Below, in pieces: positions 6,239 through 33,327 of a stretch of DNA of 41,692 bases (its first letter is position 1; every line of letters starts with the position of its first letter). Location of the stretch: positions 5,962 to 47,653 of the forward strand of contig JAADFW010000273.1 of NCBI GenBank assembly GCA_013152655.1. Reading direction: 5' to 3'. Position numbers and translations under genes: made by a program. Origin of the DNA: Chlorobiota bacterium. Lineage in GTDB: Bacteria > Bacteroidota > Bacteroidia > Bacteroidales > B39-G9. The notes under the pieces were generated by a model. It was not told the DNA's origin. It saw nothing but the letters and a program-made list of their open reading frames with translations, and did no database searches.

Positions 6239-6266
6239 TATTCCACATTTTTGAAAATGTGGAATA
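6239..6266. terminator. perfect 12-bp stem hairpin directly after the cytochrome c gene
   Basis: attccacatttt tg aaaatgtggaat immediately downstream of the stop at 6267 on the minus strand. Confidence 0.5.
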
Positions 6267-10002: not shown

Positions 10003-10380
10003 TTATTCGTGATTATGCTCATGTTCGGTATGCTCTTTATCTTTCATTTCAACTAATTTCATACCGCATTTCGGACAATCGCCTGGCTTGTCCATCATAA
10101 CTTCAGGATGCATTGTGCACGTGTACATTTTTGCATCCATATGTTCCATTTTGTCATGGTTCATTTCTGTTTTCTCAACCAGCTTCATACCACACTTAGG
10201 GCAATCTCCGGGTTTATCCATCATAACTTCGGGATGCATTGTGCAAGTGTACATTTTAGCTTCCATCTGATGATCTTCCTGTACAGATTTTGTTTTGTCA
10301 GAACCTGAATTGTTGCATGATGCAAGCGTTACTAATCCTATCAGGACTGTTCCCAGAATTTTAATTTTCATTTTTTTCAT
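10003..10380 (-). CDS. lipoprotein with two tandem heavy-metal-binding (HMBD) domains
   Basis: Lipobox LASCNN; YTCTMHPEVMMDKPGDCPKCGMKLVE present twice; His-rich C-terminus. Confidence 0.85.
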   Translation of the reverse strand: MKKMKIKILGTVLIGLVTLASCNNSGSDKTKSVQEDHQMEAKMYTCTMHPEVMMDKPGDCPKCGMKLVEKTEMNHDKMEHMDAKMYTCTMHPEVMMDKPGDCPKCGMKLVEMKDKEHTEHEHNHE

Positions 10381-12190: not shown

Positions 12191-14500
12191 TTATTGTTTT
12201 CGTAATCGTAAAGCATTTGCAATTACCGAAACAGAGCTAAAGCTCATAGCTAAGGCTGCTAACATAGGGCTTAATAAGATTCCGAAAAACGGAAATAAAA
12301 GTCCTGCTGCAATAGGAACACCTAAAATGTTATAAACAAAAGCAAAAAACAGGTTTTGTTTAATATTGCGCATAACTTTTGTACTTATATCCCTGGCTCT
12401 CATAATTCCGTTAAGGTCTCCTTTTACCAAAGTAATTTCGGCACTTTGCATGGCAACATCTGTTCCGGTACCCATGGCAATGCCAATATTTGCCTGTGCC
12501 AATCCGGGAGCATCATTTATGCCGTCACCAGCCATTGCAACAATACTGCCTTTTTCCTGGTACTCTTTTACAGTTTTATATTTATCTTCAGGAAGGCAAT
12601 CGGCTTTAAAACCATCTAATTGTAATTCGTCTGCAACGGTTTTTGCCGTTCTGGCATTATCACCGGTAAGCATAATTACTTTTACACCCGATTTTTTCAG
12701 TTTTTTAACTGCAAGGGCTGTGCTTTCTTTAATAGGGTCAGCTATACTCACTACACCTTCAACCTTATTATCAACAGACAAATACATTACAGTTTGCCCG
12801 GTTTCCTGTAATCCTTCAACAAAAGATTTTACCGATTCGGGAATTTTAATATTAAATTCATCCATCAATTTTTGGTTGCCAATACCAACACGTTGATTAT
12901 CTATTAATCCTTTAACTCCTTTTCCTGTTACCGATTCAAAATCAGTAATGCTTCTCAGTTTTAGATTTTTCTTTTTTGCACCTTTTACAATAGCCATTGC
13001 AATAGGGTGTTCGCTATTAGAATCTAAGGCGGCAGCAATGCTGAGAATCTCATCTTCAGTATGTGTGCCAAACGATTTTATTGTTTTAAGCGATGGCTTG
13101 CCTTCTGTTAATGTTCCGGTTTTATCAACAATTAAAGTATCTACTTTATTCATTTCTTCCAAAGCACGTGCATCTTTAACCAAAACACCCGATTGAGCAC
13201 CTCTTCCCGTTCCAACCATTACAGACATAGGGGTTGCCAGGCCAAGTGCACACGGACAGGCAACAATTAATACTGCAACTGCATTTACAAAAGCGTAAAC
13301 ATACCGTGGTTCAGGCCCGTAAGCTGCCCATAAAATAAAGGTTAGGATAGAAACAAAAACAACAATAGGAACAAAATATTTTGAAACCGTATCGGCTAAT
13401 TTTTGGATTGGTGCCCGTGACCTTGAAGCCTGGTTAACCATTTCAATAATTTGCGACAACAAAGTATCTGAACCCACTTTTGTAGCTTCCATATCAAACG
13501 TTCCTGTACCATTTATTGTACCACCGGTAACCAAATCGCCTTCCGCTTTATCAACCGGTACAGGTTCGCCGGTAATCATGCTTTCGTCAACATGGCTGTT
13601 TCCATTAACGAGTTTCCCGTCAACGGGAATTTTTCCGCCTGGTTTAACCCTTAGTATATCACCTGTTTTAACCTCTTCTAATGGAATTTCCATTTCTTCG
13701 CCATTTCTAATAACAAGGGCTACAGGAGGTGTGAGGTTTAGCAGGGCTTTAATAGCAGAATTAGTACGGCTGTGTGCTCTTAATTCAAGTACCTGCCCCA
13801 AAAGTACTAACGAAAAAATAACAGTTGCTGCTTCGAAATATACATGAACATTACCTTCTAAATCTTTAAATTGTGCAGGGAATATATTTGGGAAAAGCAA
13901 TGCAAAAATACTGAATAAAAATGCTGCTCCTACACCAAGCGATATTAGTGTCCACATGTTTGGCGATAATCTTCGTACAGAGTTTACACCCCGCTTAAAA
14001 AATTCTCCACCTGCATAAAAAATAACAGGTATTGAAAGAACCAATTGAACCCAGTTCCAATTTCTCATATTCATTATATTTTTTAGAGGATTCCCCGGAA
14101 AAATATCTGCCATGGCAATAAAGAGAACAGGCAAAGTGAAAATTACTGCTATAATAAATCTCTTCAACATTTTTTTATAAGCAATAATCTCTTCATCCTC
14201 TTTGGGTTTTAACGGAATTAATGTCATTCCGCATTTAGGGCATTCACCCGGTTCATTTTTAATGACCTCGGGGTGCATTGCGCATGTATATTGCGATTTT
14301 TCACCAACTGGCTTTTCTTCAGAAACAGTATGATTATGTTCTGCATGATGGTGGTGAGAATGATCCATCATATTCATTTCGGATTTTTGAGTATTTAATT
14401 TTACTAAATCCATGTTGCAAACCGGACACTTCCCCGGTTTATCATAAGTTTTGTCACCCTCACATTTCATCTGACATTGATAGGTTTCATTTGTTTCCAT
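12191..14500 (-). CDS. P1B-type heavy-metal (copper) ATPase with two N-terminal HMBD-like domains and no HMA domain
   Basis: [37 protein letters not shown]-terminal [26 protein letters not shown] and [27 protein letters not shown]. Confidence 0.93.
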
Positions 14501-17256: not shown

Positions 17257-17598
17257 TTATACGGCAAGAATGCCACTTTCGTCGGTTCTTACTTTATACA
17301 CTTCATCAACAGGCGATATAATAATCATTCCGTCGCCACGGTATCCGGTACGGCCGTTTTGTTTTATAGTGTCAATTATTTTCCGGATGTGTTCGTCAGC
17401 TACCAGTATTTCAAGTTTAATAACTCTGTATGCATTGGCAAACGGATATTTTTCGCTTATGTGGCCTTTTTCTTCATCGGTATAATGGCCGGTTCCTTCA
17501 CAATCTACAAACGTCATACAACAAAATCCTTCTTTTTTTAAGGCATTGTACACGTCTTCTATTTTACGATGCCGTATGTAAGCTTTTATTAGTTTCAT
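17257..17598 (-). CDS. PII family signal protein
   Basis: MKLIKAYIRHRKIEDVYNALKKEG ... GRTGYRGDGMIIISPVDEVYKVRT. Confidence 0.88.
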   Translation of the reverse strand: MKLIKAYIRHRKIEDVYNALKKEGFCCMTFVDCEGTGHYTDEEKGHISEKYPFANAYRVIKLEILVADEHIRKIIDTIKQNGRTGYRGDGMIIISPVDEVYKVRTDESGILAV

Positions 17599-18031: not shown

Positions 18032-18472
18032 TTATAAAAGGAATGATTGTATCAGAGAGAGGAATTGTCCTGTGCCTGGCCAATTATTGTTAGTATTATC
18101 GAAATTTGTTTCTTTTTTGTAAGATGTGAAAAGATTAGTTTCATCCTCATAAAGAGTTCTGAAAGGGGTAGAAACAAAATTATTGCTTATACTTATTTCT
18201 TGTACGGTATTTGTAAAGTAATCGCTTATTTTTACAAATGTTGTTTCATTATTACAACTATCGGTTTCACTCCCATATATTTGAAACATAACTTTATGAT
18301 TCATATTCATTGCTTGTTTCATATGGCCGTTAACGTGGTCACAGTTTTCAGCTTTTGTATCAATGCCGTATGAATATAAATTACCGTTACAATAATGAAA
18401 ATTAATAGTCAGCCCAACTGTTGTAACTAACAGAAAGAGAGATAAGATAGTATAGCTGACTTTTTTAATCAT
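18032..18472 (-). CDS. HYC...CC-type small exported protein, paralog A
   Basis: Start refined to MIKKVSY by alignment with two paralogs; TVGLTINFHYCNGNLYSYGIDTKAENC. Confidence 0.7.
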   Translation of the reverse strand: MIKKVSYTILSLFLLVTTVGLTINFHYCNGNLYSYGIDTKAENCDHVNGHMKQAMNMNHKVMFQIYGSETDSCNNETTFVKISDYFTNTVQEISISNNFVSTPFRTLYEDETNLFTSYKKETNFDNTNNNWPGTGQFLSLIQSFLL

Positions 18473-18520: not shown

Positions 18521-18564
18521 TATTATACAATTTTCAGAAAAACTTACATAATTTTCAGGTTTTT
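18521..18564 (-). promoter_or_regulatory. putative HMA-AraC operator A
   Basis: tattatacaattttcagaaaaacttacataattttcaggttttt; aattttcag direct repeat with 21-bp period; 49 bp upstream of the refined start at 18472. Confidence 0.7.
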
Positions 18565-18565
18565 A

Positions 18566-18883
18566 TTAGTGATTCAAGTCACAACAATCCAGCTTTTTAT
18601 TGCCGTATGCTTGCTTGTTTTCATTTATCATATTCTGAATTATACGTGTAAAAAAACCGGGTTTTTCATTTTCTGTTTTAAACAAAATTCCTGATTTACT
18701 GAACAACTGCTGTAAAAAATTCTTGCTTAAAATAAATGAATTATAATTCAAGCTGATGAGTTCATTAGTAATATTAAAACTTTGAATTCCTTCTGTTTTT
18801 TCTATCAGTACTTTAATTTTTTGTTTTTCAGTTTCCAGTAAGGGTTTTTCAAGATAAAATACTGTTGATTTATATTCTTCCAT
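18566..18883 (-). CDS. hypothetical protein, possibly degenerate HMA-like fold with C-terminal CC...H
   Basis: MEEYKSTVFYLEKPLLETEKQKIKVLIEKTEGIQSFNITNELISLNYNS...; no CxxC in the expected loop; C-terminal LDCCDLNH. Confidence 0.45.
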   Translation of the reverse strand: MEEYKSTVFYLEKPLLETEKQKIKVLIEKTEGIQSFNITNELISLNYNSFILSKNFLQQLFSKSGILFKTENEKPGFFTRIIQNMINENKQAYGNKKLDCCDLNH

Positions 18884-18952
18884 GATTTTAATATTTAAGA
18901 GTGAAGTTATAATTTTTTTGTTTTTTATTATTATAGTTTTAAAATTTAACAA

Positions 18953-21250: not shown

Positions 21251-21691
21251 TTAAAGCAAATAAGATTGGAATAAAGAAAGGATTAGCCCGGTATCAGGCG
21301 AATAATTGTGAGAATTATCAAAATTTGGTGCTTCTTTGTTTACTGCAAGGTAATTAATTTTGTGCTGAATAAGGGTTTTGATAAAGAAAGTTAGAAGGTT
21401 GTTACTAATTTCTGTTTTTTGAATTGCATTCGTAAAACTATCATTGATTTTTACAATTACACTTTCATCATCGCATTTATTATTGTCGTTTCCAATGGTA
21501 TGACACATAATTTGACGATTCATGTTGATAGTTTGTTCTTTAGGAATTTCATTCTTGCAACAATTCTCAGCTTTTACATCAATACCATATGAATACAAAA
21601 CACCGGCACAGTAGTGAAGATTAATAGTCAGCCCAACTGTTGAAATTAACAATAGTACAGAGAGAATTATATAGCTGACTTTTTTAATCAT
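21251..21691 (-). CDS. HYC...CC-type small exported protein, paralog B
   Basis: Start refined to MIKKVSY; TVGLTINLHYCAGVLYSYGIDVKAENCCKNE. Confidence 0.72.
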   Translation of the reverse strand: MIKKVSYIILSVLLLISTVGLTINLHYCAGVLYSYGIDVKAENCCKNEIPKEQTINMNRQIMCHTIGNDNNKCDDESVIVKINDSFTNAIQKTEISNNLLTFFIKTLIQHKINYLAVNKEAPNFDNSHNYSPDTGLILSLFQSYLL

Positions 21692-21739: not shown

Positions 21740-21783
21740 TATTATACAATTTTCAGAAAAACTTACATAATTTTCAGGTTTTT
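21740..21783 (-). promoter_or_regulatory. putative HMA-AraC operator B
   Basis: 44 bp identical to 18521..18564; 49 bp upstream of the refined start; minus-strand TATGTTTG resembles the Bacteroidota TAnnTTTG -7 element between it and the gene. Confidence 0.72.
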
Positions 21784-22343: not shown

Positions 22344-24158
22344 TTACTTAAATTCTTCTCTTGTTTCGCCGCATTTCATCATTGCTTCGCCAAAATAAGG
22401 ATTGAATATTTCTTTGGTTTCGCTAAACCAGTAAGCACCTTTTTCTCCAATAGCCATTGGGCAATATTGATAATAGGTTGTCAGGTTTTCAACTCCAAAC
22501 ATTTTAATGCTTTTGTAAAAAGTCAGGTTATAATTGGCAAAAGCGGCACGTTGTTCTTCAATATCCTTGCTTCCAATCATCTTATCTAAATTTTTGTTTA
22601 ACGCTTCAACCTGATTCATCCACATAATATGTGTATTTCCTTTTAATAATTTCATATTAATTTCCTGAAGAGCAACTTTTAAATTTTTAGCTGTTTTAGC
22701 AACTAATTTCGAATCGGTAGCAATAAAAGCATCTTTCATTGTAAGATATACTTTAAAAGAGCTGGCAAATTGAGTTTTAAATTTGTCGCTAATTTTTGAA
22801 GAACTTGTTTTTTTCTCAGGCGTATTCATTGAAGTACTCTTTTTCTTGTCACCACCCATATCCATTCCGGGCATTCCTGCCATTCCACCAGCGGGGCCAC
22901 CACCAGCCGGCGACATCATGCTTTGCTTACTAAGTAATTGTGCAGCAGCATCAATTTTAAATACGCCATTGGCAGCTACTTCTTCATTTTCTTTTAAACC
23001 TTGGGTTACAATGTAATAGTCACCTGCATCTTCTCCCAGTTTAATTTCTCTATGTTCAAATACCATTTCCTTTCCGGGAACTTTAACATATACTACAGCG
23101 CGTTTACCCGTCCATAAAATTGCAGATTTAGGTACAGTAATTGCATTTTTTATTCCCGGAAGCATTGTTTTAAGAATTCCGCTGGTAAACATACCCGGTT
23201 TTAATAAACCTTTTGTATTGTCTAATTCTGTTCTAACATAAGCTACTCTTCTTTTAGGGTCAACTACCGGATCAATAAAAGTAACAATACTGGAAAAATC
23301 TTTTGATGGCATTGACTTAACTGTAAAGTTAATTTTGTCGCCTAATTTAACCCAGGGGATATCACTTTCGTATGCATCAAACATAACCCATAAGTGGTTA
23401 AGGTTTATTACTTCAAAAAGTTGGTCGCCTTCTTTTACATAATCGCCAAGTGCTACATGCCTCATTGTTATTGTACCGGTTATAGGCGATACAACGTCAA
23501 AATAGAACTGCGGTTCGCCGGAAGTTTCTATTTCGTTAATTTGCTTTTCTGTCAAATCCCACAATTTTAGTTTATTGCGCGATGCTTTGTAAAAAGTAGG
23601 ATTATCTTCTTTGTATTTCATTGCTTCAAAAAGTTCTTTTTGTGCTGTGACCAAATCAGGCGAATAAATAGACGCTAACTTTTGTCCTTTAACTACTTTT
23701 TCTCCGGTAAAATTGACAAACAGTTTTTCTATTCGTCCACCAAAACGGGCTGTAAGTTTTGAAATATTTCGTTCGTCAGCTTTAATTTTACCAGGAAAAT
23801 AAACTTCCTTATAAGGAGCTTTCTTTTCAATAATAACAGTTTGAACCTGTGCTATTTTCATAGCTGTTTCTGACATTTTGATTTCTGAAATACTAAGTTC
23901 TTCTTCACCACCGCCTTCTACTGGAATAAGTGTCATGCCGCAAATTGGGCATTTGCCGGGTTTATCCATTCTTATTTGAGGGTGCATAGAGCAAGTCCAA
24001 ACTTCTTTTCCATTCACAATTTCTTTTTTGAGCTCATGTCCTTCGTGATTTTCTACAGGAGCACTATTTCCTCCAAAAAATACCCATCCTAATATTATTC
24101 CTGCTGCAATAGCAACGGAAGAGATAATTATTTCTCGTTTTTTTAAATTTAGTTTCAT
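22344..24158 (-). CDS. cusB: CusB-like RND periplasmic adaptor with N-terminal HMBD and C-terminal DUF3347-like domain
   Basis: WTCSMHPQIRMDKPGKCPICGMTLIPV; membrane fusion core; Met-rich linker GGMAGMPGMDMGG; C-terminal YYQYCPMA...GAYWFSETKEIFNPYFGEAMMKCG. Confidence 0.9.
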   Translation of the reverse strand: MKLNLKKREIIISSVAIAAGIILGWVFFGGNSAPVENHEGHELKKEIVNGKEVWTCSMHPQIRMDKPGKCPICGMTLIPVEGGGEEELSISEIKMSETAMKIAQVQTVIIEKKAPYKEVYFPGKIKADERNISKLTARFGGRIEKLFVNFTGEKVVKGQKLASIYSPDLVTAQKELFEAMKYKEDNPTFYKASRNKLKLWDLTEKQINEIETSGEPQFYFDVVSPITGTITMRHVALGDYVKEGDQLFEVINLNHLWVMFDAYESDIPWVKLGDKINFTVKSMPSKDFSSIVTFIDPVVDPKRRVAYVRTELDNTKGLLKPGMFTSGILKTMLPGIKNAITVPKSAILWTGKRAVVYVKVPGKEMVFEHREIKLGEDAGDYYIVTQGLKENEEVAANGVFKIDAAAQLLSKQSMMSPAGGGPAGGMAGMPGMDMGGDKKKSTSMNTPEKKTSSSKISDKFKTQFASSFKVYLTMKDAFIATDSKLVAKTAKNLKVALQEINMKLLKGNTHIMWMNQVEALNKNLDKMIGSKDIEEQRAAFANYNLTFYKSIKMFGVENLTTYYQYCPMAIGEKGAYWFSETKEIFNPYFGEAMMKCGETREEFK

Positions 24159-24188: not shown

Positions 24189-25445
24189 TTAATTTCCTAA
24201 TAAGTAATTTATAAAAGCAATAGCTGCATTTTTATCTGCCCTGGCTTTATCTAACTCAAGTTCATATTTGAGTACTTTTCGTTCCATACGAAGCACTTCC
24301 TCAAAGTTTTTACTATTTGTAGAGTATTCAGCCAGCAATATATCTAACGATTTTTTTGAAAGATATAATTGTTTGTCATACAAAATAATTCTGCGCTGGC
24401 CATCTCTGTAATCTTTAAAGCCTTGTTCAAATAATGTGCTTAATTGATTAACCCTATTGGTTTTTTTAAATTTATTAGCTTCCATTTTATATGAAGCTTC
24501 TTTTACCATACTGTTATATTTTTTACGATATAACGGAATTGTAATCCCAACTTGAGGTAATAAGATTATGTCTTTCCCGTTTTCACTTGCGCTTAAAGCA
24601 GAGTTGCTACTTTTGCCAACAGCCGTATAAGCCATTCCTATTTTAAAATCAGGCATGCCTGATTTATTGGCAACTTCTTCCTGATGTTCCCATGAAAGAA
24701 TACGATGTTCAATTTGTTTGATACTATGGTTTTGTAGCTTTATGCTATCAAGAATAGCATCTCTTTCGTAAAGTAAACTTTCATTCCATAAAGTGTCTGG
24801 AATAATAACAAGTTCGTTTTTATCTGTATTTAATAAATTATTAAAAAGAACCTGCATAGCATATCTGCTGTCTTGTAAGTAAGCCAACTGGTTTTCTAAA
24901 TCTGCAATATCTATTTCTACACGTAATTCGTCAACAGCAGAGGCTTTTCCTGATTCAAATTTTATATTAGCCAATTGTTGAAAAGTATTTAATATATCGA
25001 TATTTTCTTTTGTTATACCAATACCTTTATCAATAAAATAAAGATTATAATAAGCAGATTTTACATTGTAAAATAATTGAGATTTTGCATCTTCAAATAC
25101 TTCTAATTTTGCTTTTGCTATTTCAGAAACAACGTTTTCTTTGCTGTTTAATAAACCAAACCATGGGAAAACCTGTGAAATAGAGGTGCTAAATTGTTGT
25201 GGCCCTACACGAGTTTCAGCCGGTGAGATAAAATAGCCGAACGCTAATTGAGGGTCAGGCAATGCACCTACCTGTGGTATTTTTTCCATAGCAGCCATAT
25301 ATTCACTGAATTTACTTTTTAAATCAGGATTATTAGTAGCTGCTGTTTGCAGATATTGATTTAATATTTCCTGGCTATTAATATTTAGAGAAATAAATAG
25401 AAATAAATAGAAATATATTGTTTTTATCGCTTTCATTTTTTTCAT
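24189..25445 (-). CDS. TolC/CusC-like outer-membrane efflux protein
   Basis: NPDLKSKFSEYMAAMEKIPQVGALPDPQLAFGYFISP; coiled-coil repeats; adjacent to cusA and cusB. Confidence 0.88.
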   Translation of the reverse strand: MKKMKAIKTIYFYLFLFISLNINSQEILNQYLQTAATNNPDLKSKFSEYMAAMEKIPQVGALPDPQLAFGYFISPAETRVGPQQFSTSISQVFPWFGLLNSKENVVSEIAKAKLEVFEDAKSQLFYNVKSAYYNLYFIDKGIGITKENIDILNTFQQLANIKFESGKASAVDELRVEIDIADLENQLAYLQDSRYAMQVLFNNLLNTDKNELVIIPDTLWNESLLYERDAILDSIKLQNHSIKQIEHRILSWEHQEEVANKSGMPDFKIGMAYTAVGKSSNSALSASENGKDIILLPQVGITIPLYRKKYNSMVKEASYKMEANKFKKTNRVNQLSTLFEQGFKDYRDGQRRIILYDKQLYLSKKSLDILLAEYSTNSKNFEEVLRMERKVLKYELELDKARADKNAAIAFINYLLGN

Positions 25446-25500: not shown

Positions 25501-28500
25501 TTATTTTTTCAACTGTCCTTCTTTCCACATACTATACAAAACCGGAACAACAAACATTGTCATTACCTGTATAATCATACCTCCGAAAGATGGTATGGCC
25601 ATTGGCACCATAATATCTGCACCTTTGCCTGATGAAGTAAGAACTGGTATTAAAGCTATTATAGCAACAGAAGCAGTCATCATAGCCGGTCTTACTCTTT
25701 TAATTCCTGCATGTAAAACAGCTTCGCGAATTGCTTTTACTGATTTAGGCTTCTCTTTTGCAAATACTTGAGTTATATAAGTTCCCATAATAACACCATC
25801 GTCGGTTGCAATACCAAACAGGGCAATAAATCCTACCCAAACGGCAACACTTATATTTATTGGGTGCATCTGAAACAAGTCACGCATATTTGTACCTGCA
25901 ACGCTAAAGTTTAAAAACCAACCTTGTCCGTATAGCCACATCATTATAAAACCTCCGGAAAAAGCAACAAATATACCGGAAAATACCATGGATGAAGTTG
26001 CAACATTTCCAAATTGGAAATAAAGGATAAGAAAAATAACAATTAAACATATAGGAACAACAATTGCTAATCTTTTGGTTGCTCTTATCTGGTTTTCGTA
26101 ATTACCTGTAAATTTATAATTAACACCTGCAGGAACAACAAATTCACCAGATTCTATTTTTGCATTTATAAATCGTTGTGCTTCTTCAACCACATCAACT
26201 TCTGCAAAGCCTGGTTTTTTATCAAAAATTACATAACCATCTAAGAATGTATCCTCACTCTTAATTATTTGAGGGCCTCTTCTATAGGTAATATTAGCTA
26301 ATTCTCCTAAAGGAACTTGTTCGCCGTTAGGCAACGGAATTAAAATATTTTTTACGTCATAAGGATTATCCCTGAACTCTCTGGCATAACGCACGCGAAT
26401 TGGAAAACGCTCTCTGCCTTCAACCGTAGTTGATAGTTTAATACCACCAATGGCAACTTCAATATAGTTTTGCATGTCTTTTATTGTAAGTCCGTACCGT
26501 GCAATGGCTTTGCGGTCAATGTCAAATTCAAGGTAAGGTTTTCCAACAATTCTATCGGCAAAAACCGATGAAGATTCAATACTTGGAACTTGTTGAAGAA
26601 TCTTTTCCAAATCTAATCCCACTTTTTCAATGGTTTCCAAATCCGGCCCAAAAACTTTTATTCCTATAGGAGCTCTCATACCTGTTGAAAGCATTATTAA
26701 ACGAGTTTGAATAGGTTGCAGCTTTGGTGCCGATGTCATGCCGGGAACCCGTGATGCTTTTACAATTTCTTTCCAAATATCATCCGGCGAATTAATCTCT
26801 TTTCTCCACTGCCTGTAATATTCTCCTTTTTTATCTTTAATTAATTCTTCAATCGGAATTTCTCTGAATTTATCAACTCCATATTTGTAAGTTGTTCCGT
26901 CTTTTAGCATGAAAGCACCATCATCATTAACTTTAAACCGGACTTTATATCCATCTTCATCAACAATATATTGTGGCCTATAGCTAATTGTGTTTTCAAA
27001 CATTGAGATTGGTGCCGGGTCTAAGGCTGATTTTACTCGTCCCCATTTTCCAACAACCGATTCAACTTCGGGAATTGCGTTTACATTTTTATCAACTATT
27101 TTTATGACTTCTAAGTTTTCTTCAATACCGGAATGCGACATGGTTGTTGGCATTAACAGGAATGATCCTTCATCTAAAGAAGGCATGAATTCTTTGCCTG
27201 CTCCCGGAAAAGTTTTGCTAATGGCCTGCCAGCCATTTGTTTGTCGTAACTCTAAGCCTATTTTTTCAGAACCTGTTGCAATAAACCCAAATAGTTTATC
27301 AAAACCTATCCATGATGTAATTCCGAATACAAAAACAAATATAGGGATAGATAAAAATTTCCATTTATTATCTAAACACCATTTTAGTATTGAGGAATAA
27401 AAATGAACAATGGTCATTAATGCACCCAAAACAGTTCCAATAATAACACCTACAAATATAAAGTTTACAAACAAGCTGTTTTGTGCGCCGAGGGGCATCC
27501 ATGCTTCTGCCAGAAAATATGTAATAATCGTTATAGTAATAGCAATATTTATAATGTTAACATATTTCCTTTTATTTTCAGGCCATTTATGTTCTAATAA
27601 ATTATTTACTCCAAATGCAACTAAGGACAAAGCCAATAAATTGCCAAAGAATATTGTGACAAGAATTCCTAAACCTATTAACGTTCCGTTCCAGATTCTT
27701 TTAGTGTGTTTTTCACCAAAATTTATTGAAAAAATACCATGTGCCAAGGCAGGAATAACAATTATTCCAATTACTAATGAGGATACAATTGCAAATGTTT
27801 TAGTGAACGCCAAAGGCCTGAAAAGTTTTCCTTCTGCTGCCTGCATGGCAAATACAGGTAAAAAACTTACAATTGTTGTAGCAAGGGCAGTAATAATGGC
27901 TGATGCTACTTCAACGGTGGCTTCGTAAATTACCTGCAATAGAGCTTTCCCTTTTAATCCTTTATTCTCCGGCATTTCAAGGTGCCGGACAATATTTTCG
28001 GTAAACACTATTCCCACATCAACCATTACCCCAATGGCAATAGCAATACCAGATAATGCTACAATGTTGGCATCGACACCAACTTTTCGCATAGTAATAA
28101 ATGTGATTAACACGCCTAAAGGCAATAAACTGGAAATGAGAATTGATGCCCGCAGATTTACCATTAATATAATAACCACTATTATACTTATAAGTATTTC
28201 ATGTGTTAATGCTTCCTCAAGTGTTCCCAGCGTTTCTTTTATTAATCCCGAGCGGTCGTAAAACGGAACAACTGTAACTTTTGAAATAGTTCCGTCGGGC
28301 AATGTTTTACTTGGCAATCCGGGAGCTATTTTTTTGATGGCTTCTTTTACATTATTTATAACCTCTAATGGGTTGGCGCCATATCTTGCAACAACCACAG
28401 CTCCTGTAGCCTCAGCTCCATCTTTGTCTAATCCTCCCCGGCGTGTTGCCGGCCCGTAGTTTACAACTGCTACATCTTTAATTCGTATGGGTGTATTTCC

Positions 28501-29310
28501 ATTTACAGTTACTACAGCTTCTTTAAGGTCATCTAAATTTCGTATATAGCCAAGTCCTCTAACAAGGTATTCAACTCGGTTAAACTCCATTGTTCTTGCT
28601 CCAACATCAAGGTTGCTTTTCTTAACGGCATTCATAATTTGAGCAACATTAACATTGGCAGCTTTCATGGCAACCGGGTCAATGTCAACCTGATATTCTT
28701 TTACAAAACCTCCAATGGGTGCTACTTCAGAAACTCCCTTTGCAGAAGTTAACGCATAGCCTACGTAAAAGTCTTGTATAGTTCTTAATTCTTGCGGGTC
28801 CCATCCACCGGCTGGTTTCCCTGTTTTTGGGTCGCGGCCTTCCAGTGTGTACCAAAAGACCTGGCCAAGTGCCGTCGCATCAGGCCCTAACGCAGGTTGA
28901 ACATCACTCGGCAGCGTTCCGGATGGCAAAGAATTTATTTTTTCTAAAATTCTTGTCCTGCCCCAATAAAATTCTATGTTTTCATCAAATATTATATAAA
29001 TAGTAGAAAGCCCGAAAATTGAGCTGCTACGAATAGTTTTAACACCGGGCACGCCTAACATGGCTACCGTTAACGGGTAAGTAATCTGATCTTCAATATC
29101 CTGCGGAGAGCGCCCCATCCATTCGGTAAAAACTATTTGTTGATTTTCTCCTATGTCAGGAATTGCATCAACGGGTACAGGGTCTCTTGGAATGAAGCCT
29201 CCACCCCAGTTAAAAGGGGCTGTTGAAATACCCCAAACAACCAGCACGAGTACAATTATACTGGTAACCAGTTTATTCTCTAAAAAATATCGGATAATTT
29301 TGTTTAACAT
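25501..29310 (-). CDS. cusA: CusA-like Cu(I)/Ag(I) HME-RND efflux pump
   Basis: IPDIGENQQIVFTEWMGRSPQDIEDQITYPLTVAMLGVPGVKTIRSSS; STGMRAPIGIKVFG; GIATDDGVIMGTYI. Confidence 0.95.
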   Translation of the reverse strand: MLNKIIRYFLENKLVTSIIVLVLVVWGISTAPFNWGGGFIPRDPVPVDAIPDIGENQQIVFTEWMGRSPQDIEDQITYPLTVAMLGVPGVKTIRSSSIFGLSTIYIIFDENIEFYWGRTRILEKINSLPSGTLPSDVQPALGPDATALGQVFWYTLEGRDPKTGKPAGGWDPQELRTIQDFYVGYALTSAKGVSEVAPIGGFVKEYQVDIDPVAMKAANVNVAQIMNAVKKSNLDVGARTMEFNRVEYLVRGLGYIRNLDDLKEAVVTVNGNTPIRIKDVAVVNYGPATRRGGLDKDGAEATGAVVVARYGANPLEVINNVKEAIKKIAPGLPSKTLPDGTISKVTVVPFYDRSGLIKETLGTLEEALTHEILISIIVVIILMVNLRASILISSLLPLGVLITFITMRKVGVDANIVALSGIAIAIGVMVDVGIVFTENIVRHLEMPENKGLKGKALLQVIYEATVEVASAIITALATTIVSFLPVFAMQAAEGKLFRPLAFTKTFAIVSSLVIGIIVIPALAHGIFSINFGEKHTKRIWNGTLIGLGILVTIFFGNLLALSLVAFGVNNLLEHKWPENKRKYVNIINIAITITIITYFLAEAWMPLGAQNSLFVNFIFVGVIIGTVLGALMTIVHFYSSILKWCLDNKWKFLSIPIFVFVFGITSWIGFDKLFGFIATGSEKIGLELRQTNGWQAISKTFPGAGKEFMPSLDEGSFLLMPTTMSHSGIEENLEVIKIVDKNVNAIPEVESVVGKWGRVKSALDPAPISMFENTISYRPQYIVDEDGYKVRFKVNDDGAFMLKDGTTYKYGVDKFREIPIEELIKDKKGEYYRQWRKEINSPDDIWKEIVKASRVPGMTSAPKLQPIQTRLIMLSTGMRAPIGIKVFGPDLETIEKVGLDLEKILQQVPSIESSSVFADRIVGKPYLEFDIDRKAIARYGLTIKDMQNYIEVAIGGIKLSTTVEGRERFPIRVRYAREFRDNPYDVKNILIPLPNGEQVPLGELANITYRRGPQIIKSEDTFLDGYVIFDKKPGFAEVDVVEEAQRFINAKIESGEFVVPAGVNYKFTGNYENQIRATKRLAIVVPICLIVIFLILYFQFGNVATSSMVFSGIFVAFSGGFIMMWLYGQGWFLNFSVAGTNMRDLFQMHPINISVAVWVGFIALFGIATDDGVIMGTYITQVFAKEKPKSVKAIREAVLHAGIKRVRPAMMTASVAIIALIPVLTSSGKGADIMVPMAIPSFGGMIIQVMTMFVVPVLYSMWKEGQLKK

Positions 29311-29487: not shown

Positions 29488-29922
29488 TCAGAATAAGAAT
29501 ACTTGTAAAAAGGAGAAAATTTGCCTCGAATAAGGCGGAGAGTCATTATCGTTTAAGATACTTGTACTAGTTACCTCATATGTAAAAATGTTGAATATGC
29601 CGGTAAAAGCATAAAGTACAATAGTATCATTAATATTAGTATTTATATTTTCAGTTGTAGTAGTAAAATAATCATCTATTTTAACTAAAACTGTTTCATC
29701 ATTACAATGATTATTTTGTGGTTCTTCAATGTGGCATTGATTGTTTTGCTCACTATTGTTCATATGAGTTTTATGATTATTATCTTCACAGCAATTATTA
29801 TTTTCAGAATCTATTGCCACAGAATATAAGTTTCCTGCACAATAATGTAGGTTAATAGTTAACCCCATTGTTGTAATCAACAATGCAAGTGATATAATAA
29901 TATAGCTGATTCTTTTAATCAT
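29488..29922 (-). CDS. HYC...CC-type small exported protein, paralog C
   Basis: MIKRISYIIISLALLITTMGLTINLHYCAGNLYSVAIDSENNNCCEDNNHKTH. Confidence 0.72.
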   Translation of the reverse strand: MIKRISYIIISLALLITTMGLTINLHYCAGNLYSVAIDSENNNCCEDNNHKTHMNNSEQNNQCHIEEPQNNHCNDETVLVKIDDYFTTTTENINTNINDTIVLYAFTGIFNIFTYEVTSTSILNDNDSPPYSRQIFSFLQVFLF

Positions 29923-29966
29923 AGTTTTTTATTCCTGACAAATATATGCAGGTTAATTTATTTGAA

Positions 29967-30005
29967 TTTTACACAATTTTCTTAAAATGTTACATAATTT
30001 TCTGA
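29967..30005 (-). promoter_or_regulatory. putative HMA-AraC operator C
   Basis: ttttacacaattttcttaaaatgttacataattttctga; aattttct half-sites with 21-bp period; 45 bp upstream of the start at 29922. Confidence 0.65.
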
Positions 30006-30045
30006 TACAATTTTAATCGAAAATTAGTTATAGGAATACACTATC

Positions 30046-30258
30046 TTAATTAACTATTTCCGAATTATAACCTGCCGTTTTTAATACATTAATAATTTCT
30101 GCCGGTGTAATACCATCAGCCTGTATAGTTAAAATTCTATCTTTTGATGTCAGGTCAACTTCCCAGTTTTTTATTCCGGTTTCTTTGTTTAAAAATGGTG
30201 TAACAGTTGCCTTACAACCATTACAAGTAATGTTTGTTTTAAATTTTAATTCTTTCAT
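30046..30258 (-). CDS. cytosolic HMA-domain copper chaperone-like protein
   Basis: ELKFKTNITCNGCKATVTPFLNKETGIKNWEVDL; 5 nt from the ATPase gene. Confidence 0.85.
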   Translation of the reverse strand: MKELKFKTNITCNGCKATVTPFLNKETGIKNWEVDLTSKDRILTIQADGITPAEIINVLKTAGYNSEIVN

Positions 30259-30263
30259 TTTTA

Positions 30264-32510
30264 TTAAATTTTTATAAATTTTAATCTTAAGCTATTGGTA
30301 ACAACCGAAACAGAACTTAATGCCATGGCTGCGCCTGCAATCATAGGATTTAATAAAAATCCTGTAAAAGAATACAAAATACCTGCGGCAATTGGTATTC
30401 CGATAAGGTTATAAACAAATGCCCAGAATAAATTCTGTTTTACTGTTTGCACAGTTTTTCTTGATAACTCAATAGCTTGTGAAATTTTTGAGAGGTCTGA
30501 TGAAATGATAGTCATTTTTGCCACATCCATAGCAATATCCGAACCTTTTCCCATAGCAATGCTTACATCAGCCTGAGCTAATGCGTGCGAATCGTTTATG
30601 CCATCGCCAACCATGGCTACCACTTTATTTTCTTTTTGAAGTTTTTTAGCAAATTCAGCTTTGTCTGATGGCAATGTATTTGCCATATAATTTTTTATAC
30701 CAACTTTTTGGGCAACAGCCTTAGCTGTTTTTTCATTGTCGCCAGTAAGCATATAGGTTTCGATACCCAGTTTTTGTAATTTTTGTATGGCCAGTATAGA
30801 ACTGTTTTTAACTTTGTCGGCTAAAGCAAAAACTGCCTTTACTTTTGTGTTATCTGCAAAATAGATTAATGTTTTAGCCTGTTCTTCCAGTTTGTTTACT
30901 TTATCTGAAATTTCATCCGGAATTTTAATTTCATTATCAGACAATAATTTCTTATTTCCAACAAAATATTTTGTATCATTTATTTCCGCAAATACACCTT
31001 TGCCCGGAATGTTTTCAAAATTATTGATTTCAATTTTATGAGCCTTGTCACTTTTAAAACTGCCTAAAACGGCTTCTGCCAATGGATGTTCTGATCGCGA
31101 TTCGATTGAATAAAGGATATCTTTCAAAATTGAACGGTCATTTAAATTCTCATCCCATATAGTATCTGTAACTTTGGGTTTTCCTTCGGTAATGGTTCCG
31201 GTTTTATCTAATATAATAGCATTTATTTTTTTTGCTGTTTCTAAGCTTTCTGCATCTTTTATTAGAATTCCGTTTTCGGCACCTTTGCCAATGCCAACCA
31301 TTATAGCGGTTGGTGTAGCTAAGCCAAGTGCGCACGGACAGGCAATTACCAGTACGGCAACAAGTGACAGAAAAGCATGAGTTAATGCATTTTCTCCGCC
31401 AAATACAATCCACAAAACAAAGCTTAACAAAGCAATAGCCATAACTACCGGGACAAAAATTCCGGCTACTTTATCTACCAGTTTTTGCACAGGTGCTTTA
31501 CTTCCTTGTGCTTCCTCAACCATTTTAATGATTTGTGCTAAAACGGTATTGCCTCCAACTTTTTCGGCTTTAAACTGAAAACTGCCTTTTTGATTTACGG
31601 TACCGGCAAAAACTTTTTCACCGGCTATTTTTTCAACAGCAATAGGTTCACCAGAAATCATGCTTTCATCAACAAATGAATTTCCGGTGGTTACTTCGCC
31701 ATCAACCGGTATTTTTTCACCTGGTTTTACCAGTATTATATCATTCTCAACAATTTCAGAAACTTTAATTTCAACTTCGCTGCCATTGGTATTTATTTTA
31801 GTAACCGTTTTAGGTTGAAGCCCTATTAGTTTTTTTAAAGCCGAATTAGTACTTGATTTAGCTCTTTCTTCCAATAATTTACCCAACATAATAAATACAA
31901 TAATAACTCCGGCTGCTTCATAGTAAACATGTGCTTCAAGTCCTTTAGCAGTTAATATTTTGGGGAATAGCGTATTGAAAACACTAAATAAATATGCAAT
32001 TGAAGTACTTAAAGCTACCAATGTATCCATATTTGCCTTACCGTGTTTGGCTTGTTTCAAAGCATTTACAAAAAACTGTTTTCCAAAAATAAATAATATG
32101 GGTGTTGCTAAAGCCCACATAATATAATTAGCAAAGGGTATTTCATTAAATACCATACTAATTAATATTAAAGGGATGGCAAGTATTGCAGCCCAAATAG
32201 TTCTTTTCTTTAAAATAAGGAAATGATTGGCTTTTATTTCGTCGGGAGAATCATTTTTACCGGTTTCTGTATTTTCAATAATTAAATCATAACCTATTTC
32301 CTGAATTACATTTTTCATTTTTTCAGGTGTAATGCTATGATAATCATACTCTACCATTACTGATGAACTGGCAAAATTTACTGCTGCATTTACAACACTT
32401 TCCTGAGCATTAAGCATGCTTTCAACACTGGCTGCACACGATGCACAACTTAACCCGGTAACGGGAAAAGTTTGTTTGCGCATTTCTTTTTTTTCAACAA
32501 CAATTTCCAT
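30264..32510 (-). CDS. copA: P1B-type copper ATPase with N-terminal HMA domain
   Basis: [57 protein letters not shown]; start refined to ATG at 32510 because the listed ORF begins with TTG. Confidence 0.93.
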
Positions 32511-32559
32511 TTCTCTATTAATTTTAAAATGCAAAGTTGCATCAGAAAATTAAAGGAGA

Positions 32560-32597
32560 TATTACAGGATTTTCAGAAAAAGTTACATTATTTACAC
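32560..32597 (-). promoter_or_regulatory. putative HMA-AraC operator D
   Basis: tattacaggattttcagaaaaagttacattatttacac; aligns to operators A-C; 50 bp upstream of the refined copA start and abutting the araC stop. Confidence 0.6.
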
Positions 32598-33164
32598 TTT
32601 ATCAAGCGATTTTCGTTTGTTCTTGCCTAATTGTTTGAAGTTTTTAGGTGTCATGCCTGTTATTTTTTTAAATTGGTTACTCAGGTGAGCAACGCTGCTA
32701 TAGCCTAATTTCCAGGCAATTTCGGAAAGGGTAAATTCATTATAAACAATAAGCTCTTTTGCTTTTTCTATTTTTTGCAGGATGATATAATGTTCAATCG
32801 TAATTCCCTCAACCGAAGAAAATAACTGGCTCAGGTATTTATATTCAAAATTTAATTCCTTACTGATTAATTCTGACCAAATTATATTTTTTTCACTTAA
32901 GTCATCATAATGAATTGTTTCAATAACAATATTTTTAACCGATTCAATTAACCGGCTTTTCCTGTCATCAATAAGTTCAAACCCGTTTTCTTGTAATACT
33001 TGTTGTAATGTTTCCAACTTTTTTTTATCAATTTCCCCAACTACGTCAACTTCGCCAAGCTTAATATTTTTGATTTTAATTTCCAACTTTTCCAGTTCCT
33101 CACTAACAACTTTAATGCATCGGGGACAAACCATATTTTTAATATGCAAAACGTTACTTTTCAT
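32592..33164 (-). CDS. AraC-family regulator with N-terminal HMA-like domain
   Basis: N-terminal VLHIKNMVCPRCIKVVSEELEKL; C-terminal FTLSEIAWKLGYSSVAHLSNQFKKITGMTPKNFKQL HTH. Confidence 0.92.
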   Translation of the reverse strand: MKSNVLHIKNMVCPRCIKVVSEELEKLEIKIKNIKLGEVDVVGEIDKKKLETLQQVLQENGFELIDDRKSRLIESVKNIVIETIHYDDLSEKNIIWSELISKELNFEYKYLSQLFSSVEGITIEHYIILQKIEKAKELIVYNEFTLSEIAWKLGYSSVAHLSNQFKKITGMTPKNFKQLGKNKRKSLDKV

Positions 33165-33327
33165 AAATCAAAAATAGAATATTAATAGATGAAAAACAAT
33201 GTTAAAACTTGTTTTAGCAATATATTAATTGGAATTAATTTTACTTTTTTACTTTTTACTTTTTCAAGGACAATAAGCCAAGGCTCTGCATCTTGTACGC
33301 TTTATTTTTTACTTTTTATTTTTCGAT

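Follow-up and report, generated by a model that had tools for sequence, protein, structure and literature searches.

How does a bacterium of the Bacteroidota sense copper in its cytoplasm, and with which protein? To our knowledge, copper sensing in this phylum is poorly described. The question arises at a locus of a Chlorobiota bacterium (contig JAADFW010000273.1 of assembly GCA_013152655.1), of which we analyzed a stretch of 41,692 nucleotides, hereafter the window. An earlier note on this DNA had drawn attention to an AraC-type regulator gene with a metallochaperone-like N-terminus and had read its product as a one-component Cu(I) sensor of copA and of the genes for HYC_CC_PP family proteins (HYC). 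We therefore analyzed the domain structure of the regulator, its family, its gene neighborhoods and the promoters that it may control.

Domain architecture of the regulator

The open reading frame proposed in the note was recovered at exactly the same coordinates. The gene and its parts are as follows.

32592..33164, minus strand: HMA-AraC regulator gene; open reading frame with ATG start, 190 aa; Pfam HMA and HTH_18; AlphaFold2 pLDDT 87.7
32970..33158, minus strand: HMA domain, aa 3-65, E-H-E-E-H-E (Pfam, phmmer, family profile, AlphaFold2, Foldseek)
33117..33128, minus strand: CxxC codons, Cys13 (33128-33126) to Cys16 (33119-33117) (sequence and conservation)
32907..32963, minus strand: linker helix, aa 68-86 (AlphaFold2 model)
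32628..32879, minus strand: AraC-type DNA-binding domain, aa 96-179, two HTH (Pfam, AlphaFold2, Foldseek)

The AraC-type HTH was matched by PF12833 with 64.5 bits at aa 101-178 and by PF00165 with 40.6 bits. At the N-terminus, PF00403 (HMA) aligned to aa 5-63 over its full length (profile positions 1-62 of 62) with an E-value of 0.0013 and 19.5 bits, so that this domain taken alone misses the curated Pfam cut-off of 24.8 bits. The Pfam HMA profile likewise matched only six of 33 relatives at E 0.01. In a phmmer search the regulator matched Bacillus subtilis CopZ at E 0.0016, and a profile built from the 33 relatives and run against the PDB matched, over positions 2-62, the Wilson ATPase ATP7B at E 9.4e-9 and CopZ at 2.3e-5. 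Because the family profile reaches HMA proteins at E 9e-9, the HMA homology is not in doubt.

Structure prediction, which the note had named as a check, gave the same picture: in the AlphaFold2 model (pLDDT 87.7, pTM 0.80) the N-terminus does model as HMA, with strands and helices in the ferredoxin-like order beta-alpha-beta-beta-alpha-beta (E3-9, H14-26, E31-35, E38-42, H47-59, E63-65), and the DNA-binding domain was modeled with its helices within aa 96-179. Foldseek matched the model to CopZ (2qif; E 0.012, probability 1.00) and to many AraC DNA-binding domains, among them 6swi at E 8e-6. The loop that would bind the metal is an MxCxxC motif, M11-V-C13-P-R-C16. Thus, the HMA-like N-terminus with a CxxC (MVCPRC) and the AraC-type HTH, both read from the sequence in the note, were borne out by Pfam, the family profile, AlphaFold2 and Foldseek, and the AraC-type DNA-binding domain is complete.

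The copper island in the window

As the note had it, the regulator lies 5' of copA on the same strand; 81 bp separate the two genes. Along the minus strand the regulator is followed, in this order, by copA, copZ, HYC1, cusA, cusC and cusB.

30264..32510, minus strand: copA, P1B-1-type Cu(I)-ATPase (TIGR01511; CPC, YN and MxxSS motifs; start taken as ATG 32510)
30046..30258, minus strand: copZ-like chaperone, HMA, 70 aa (PF00403, 26.8 bits)
29488..29922, minus strand: HYC_CC_PP family protein 1 (HYC1) (NF047658, 58.8 bits)
25501..29310, minus strand: cusA/czcA RND pump (TIGR00914)
24189..25445, minus strand: cusC-like outer-membrane efflux protein (PF02321)
22344..24158, minus strand: cusB-like adaptor with HMBD and DUF3347 (domain matches)
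21251..21691, minus strand: HYC_CC_PP family protein 2 (HYC2) (NF047658 and sequence; start taken as ATG 21691)
18032..18472, minus strand: HYC_CC_PP family protein 3 (HYC3) (NF047658 and sequence; start taken as ATG 18472)

The CPC, YN and MxxSS motifs of copA are what we take to be the signature of a Cu(I)-ATPase (P1B-1). Its mechanically assigned start, TTG 32534, falls within the promoter and overlaps the -7 element described below; translation more likely begins at ATG 32510. For HYC2, too, the mechanically assigned start (21727) falls inside the promoter. We know of no function for the HYC_CC_PP family. The island also contains a protein with a C-terminal LDCC putative metal-binding motif (18566-18952; NF040898) and a P-II-like nitrogen regulator protein (17257-17598). 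A second copper-type P1B ATPase (12191-14500) and a small HMBD protein (10003-10380) have no predicted operator of the kind described below and are probably under another regulator.

An old and widespread family

When one genome per species was scanned, 470 coding stretches proved to be related to the regulator, and the best 80 of these 470 came from Marinilabiliaceae, Salinivirgaceae, Flavobacteriaceae, Chitinophagaceae, Cytophagales and Ignavibacteria. Relatives were also found on plasmids of Hymenobacter, Runella, Aureibacter and others. In public annotation they are called merely "AraC family transcriptional regulator" or helix-turn-helix protein. Because the regulator belongs to a large family, which the author of the note did not see, its architecture is not peculiar to the Chlorobiota bacterium genome; as judged from these sequences, it is old and shared and no local fusion. 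A further count, 220 of 297 genomes, takes in plain AraC proteins and is no count of the HMA-AraC fusion. The genome of the bacterium itself (a fragmented assembly of 287 contigs, 92% complete) holds a single copy at E 1e-3.

In the metal-binding loop, the pattern K9-N10-M11-V12-C13-x-R15-C16 holds without exception across 33 diverse members and almost without exception across 81. Of 167 copies in a larger collection, 144 keep MxCxxC. Since these 144 are grouped by the motif itself, each of them necessarily has M11, C13 and C16, and the more telling figure is that only 23 copies lack the motif, 18 of them with Ser in place of Cys13. A copA gene, in many cases accompanied by copZ, also follows the regulator in Flavobacterium, Marivirga, Ignavibacteria and other groups.

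A predicted operator shared by copA and the HYC genes

A repeat was first suspected from the DNA that immediately follows the regulator gene in relatives. An unbiased expectation-maximization (EM) motif search of 45 non-redundant regions downstream of the regulator reached a log-likelihood of 231, compared with 91-95 on four shuffled sets, and the consensus is a direct repeat with a period of 21 bp, TGTAAC-N15-TGTAAC. A second matrix was built from 20 EM sites and run on all remaining sequence; three EM matches that sit in the HMA-loop coding sequence of the next gene were excluded from it. The predicted operator of the HMA-AraC family is a new result of the present analysis. Four sites were predicted in the window.

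32560..32587, minus strand: predicted operator of copA, TGTAACTTTTTCTGAAAATCCTGTAATA (motif discovery, training set, and matrix scans)
29967..29994, minus strand: predicted operator of HYC1 (held-out match)
21740..21767, minus strand: predicted operator of HYC2 (held-out match)
18521..18548, minus strand: predicted operator of HYC3, 28 bp identical to that of HYC2 (held-out match)

These four sites score 23-25 bits, the three HYC sites were absent from the training set, and no further site above 16 bits was found in the window; the maximum in 60 simulated windows (one strand) was 17.3 bits. The copA and HYC targets suggested in the note are thus matched by a predicted operator before copA and before all three HYC_CC_PP genes. 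At HYC1 a weaker site (29988-30015) overlaps the operator and gives three half-sites in a row. The identity of the HYC2 and HYC3 operators over 28 bp suggests a recent duplication. We rejected a candidate site (6239-6266) that precedes the gene of a Met/His-rich YHS protein; it scores 12.8 bits, about chance level, and is an inverted repeat.

Beyond the window, the 4-Mb genome of the bacterium, scanned by pattern only, contains six exact matches to a degenerate pattern. Four are the copA and HYC operators, and the other two, near genes without a copper link, were taken as chance. In 1.55 Mb of loci, 58 sites exceeded 17 bits (training sites included) where 2 were expected. A stricter pattern gave 18 matches in 297 Bacteroidota genomes at 21-bp spacing and none in the same genomes at the control spacing of 22 bp. 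About half of the 18 face genes without an evident copper link (OmpW-like, UspA); at eight loci in other Bacteroidota the strict pattern stands before OmpW-like outer-membrane and UspA-type genes. One strict match precedes a paralogue with Ser in place of Cys13, from which it follows that such paralogues may use the same DNA site. At another locus (L077, 6555-7206) two HMA-AraC genes stand in tandem, with operators before the second gene, before copA and near a copZ-like gene further on.

The 21-bp direct repeat is present and conserved, and direct repeats spaced by about two helical turns near a promoter are a trait of the AraC/XylS family. The pairing of protein and site is a prediction, under which the regulator would bind the repeat through its AraC-type domain.

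Gene neighborhoods and the nature of the metal

We examined neighbors at loci that were retrieved through homology from a broad sample of genomes. Copper genes (copA, copZ, HYC, cusA or cusB) lie within 4 kb of 44 of the 60 copies with an intact CxxC and of none of the 17 copies that read MVSxxC (Fisher p 2e-8, a value that kinship among the copies makes overstate the case). It is this gene company that suggests copper as the metal. HMA domains can bind Hg, Zn or Cd too and are also found in MerP and ZntA, and the regulator might sense such a thiophilic metal, or several, and control a broader efflux set. Many Flavobacteriaceae members precede ArsR/MerT/MerA-like genes, and an Aureibacter copy precedes a SO_0444 family Cu/Zn transporter. 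For many of these flavobacterial members no strong operator was found within 6 kb, and in many of them residue 160, which lies in the recognition region, is Tyr instead of His; their DNA site, and perhaps their metal, may hence differ. Against this reading, the mer-type neighborhoods belong mainly to one flavobacterial clade, while the targets in the window and at most non-flavobacterial loci are copA with P1B-1 motifs, copZ and cus genes, and we consider another metal unlikely, though the strongest of the alternatives to copper sensing by an activator. In part of the flavobacterial clade, weak versions of the operator (10-13 bits) precede copA operons. A neighbor cluster labeled "MerT" was discarded as evidence, as it mixes MerT-like, small HMA and SO_0444-type proteins. 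At six Chitinophaga loci the regulator lies near genes that, on inspection by eye, resemble cytochrome-oxidase-type and hemN-like genes, often with an HYC gene nearby but not copA.

Promoter geometry and the regulatory sign

Three promoter elements in the window bear on the direction of control.

32532..32539, minus strand: -7-like element CAACTTTG of copA, whose start lies 27 nt downstream of that of the second half-site
29939..29946, minus strand: -7 element TATATTTG of HYC1, with spacing identical to that of copA
33169..33199, minus strand: probable promoter of the regulator gene itself, TTG-N20-TATTTTTG (matched by 0.2% of shuffled regions)

Counted from the start of the second half-site, a TAnnTTTG-like element begins 26-28 nt downstream in 25 of 31 sites, and at exactly 27 nt in 20; these 31 were picked by hand among sites found before and test the spacing, not the presence of a site. 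Half-sites over the -33 region are occupied by AraC-type class II activators such as AraC and SoxS. The published Bacteroides sigma consensus consists of TAnnTTTG at -7 and TTTG near -33 (PMC7366714), and together with the observed spacing it implies that the second half-site covers the -33 region. Near the own promoter of the regulator (33199-33169), matrix scans found no operator.

This geometry suggests activation. An operator over the -33 region could block RNA polymerase just as well, so that the regulator might instead repress copA and the HYC genes in the absence of copper and be relieved by Cu(I). The fixed spacing of 26-28 nt between half-site and -7 element, combined with a 21-bp direct repeat, is the geometry of an AraC-type class II activator, and we consider repression unlikely, somewhat less probable still than a different metal.

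A clade that lost Cys13

The copies with Ser in place of Cys13 form one clade (SH-aLRT 99), and a PAS-domain protein follows 10 of the 17 (Fisher p 2e-8, which kinship again makes overstate the case). In these sequences the loss of the metal site goes along with departure from copper genes, and the direction of this trend is clear. At ten loci of the clade the loop is KYMVSxRC, with Ser for Cys13 and Tyr for Asn10; a PAS-domain protein is usually next and the same operator is often nearby. The clade looks like a one-time metal sensor turned to another use.

These copies also bear on whether the CxxC might be a thiol redox switch and no metal site at all. The two cysteines would be able to form a disulfide, and the Ser clade often still has the operator; Met11 and the HMA fold, on the other hand, are retained together with both Cys, and the loss of Cys13 is accompanied by the loss of copper neighbors, which makes a redox switch very improbable. 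We attach hardly any weight to the last alternative, in which the regulator is unrelated to copper, its adjacency to copA accidental and the motif that of another factor: the pairing of protein and motif is predicted and some matches elsewhere face genes without a copper link, but the copper association spans many genera and orders and copper neighbors are lost in one specific clade.

Comparison with known regulators

None of the domains of the MerR (CueR), CsoR, CopY or CusRS systems is among the Pfam and NCBIfam matches of the regulator, in agreement with the note, which had set it apart from them. They share with it the presumed job of sensing copper and switching on copA or cus genes, and differ in their unrelated MerR, CsoR and CopY folds or two-component organization and in their operators. 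The N-terminal domain resembles CopZ and other HMA metallochaperones (2qif, 1k0v) in fold and MxCxxC site, whereas these are free chaperones without a DNA-binding domain. The C-terminus corresponds to the two-HTH domains of SoxS, MarA and AraT (7w5w, 1bl0, 6swi), which have no metal-binding HMA domain, SoxS and MarA being single-domain proteins.

The closest functional parallel is YbtA, an AraC-family protein of the Yersinia high-pathogenicity island, which responds to Cu(II) complexed with yersiniabactin and switches on siderophore genes; its C206S/C209S double mutant is inactive, so that the CXXC is essential (PMC8725597). Both are AraC-type proteins with a CXXC in the sensor part, YbtA being an activator needed for a copper-linked response and the HMA-AraC regulator being predicted to respond to copper, and the putative binding sites at YbtA promoters are repeats as well (PMC8725597). 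YbtA differs in having a large Cys-rich ligand-binding domain with the CXXC, not described as HMA, in place of a 65-aa HMA domain, and in having siderophore genes as targets rather than predicted Cu(I) export genes. AraC-type copper-linked control via a CXXC is therefore already known from YbtA, and what is described here is a one-component regulator of the AraC type whose sensor domain is of the metallochaperone type. Full-text searches of open-licence papers found no description of such a regulator, an absence that is weak evidence.

Proposed function and significance

The domain architecture, its conservation, the genomic association, the operator and its -7 spacing were computed directly. 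On this basis, we regard it as probable that the regulator is a one-component Cu(I) sensor and class II activator of the copA-copZ and HYC-cus genes; the sensor reading of the earlier note thus finds its support at the levels of sequence, structure prediction and promoter anatomy. The regulator would be made from its own ordinary promoter and act in the cytoplasm, where the CopZ-like HMA domain would bind Cu(I) (or Ag(I)) through Cys13 and Cys16. Metal binding may then alter the linker helix or pair two HMA domains, dimerization through the HMA domains being a guess, and two AraC-type DNA-binding domains would occupy both half-sites of the 21-bp direct repeat. The target promoters have a TAnnTTTG-like -7 element, and their upstream contact would depend on the activator (class II), which could recruit RNA polymerase at copA-copZ, HYC1 (with cusA-cusC-cusB downstream), HYC2 and HYC3.

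The HMA-AraC regulators are probably an undescribed way of copper sensing in Bacteroidota. We put at somewhat better than even the broader proposal that they form a class of one-component Cu(I) sensors not described before and are the main cytoplasmic copper sensor across much of the Bacteroidota and Ignavibacteria, with one 21-bp-repeat operator over -33, with HYC_CC_PP proteins as new members of the copper regulon, and with one clade that lost the metal site and was reused beside PAS-domain proteins. In that clade, nature already provides a comparison for studying how a sensor comes to lose its metal. If the proposal is true, a gene family annotated only as "AraC family transcriptional regulator" would be assigned a function together with a DNA target and a regulon, and HYC_CC_PP, an orphan family, would be linked to copper.
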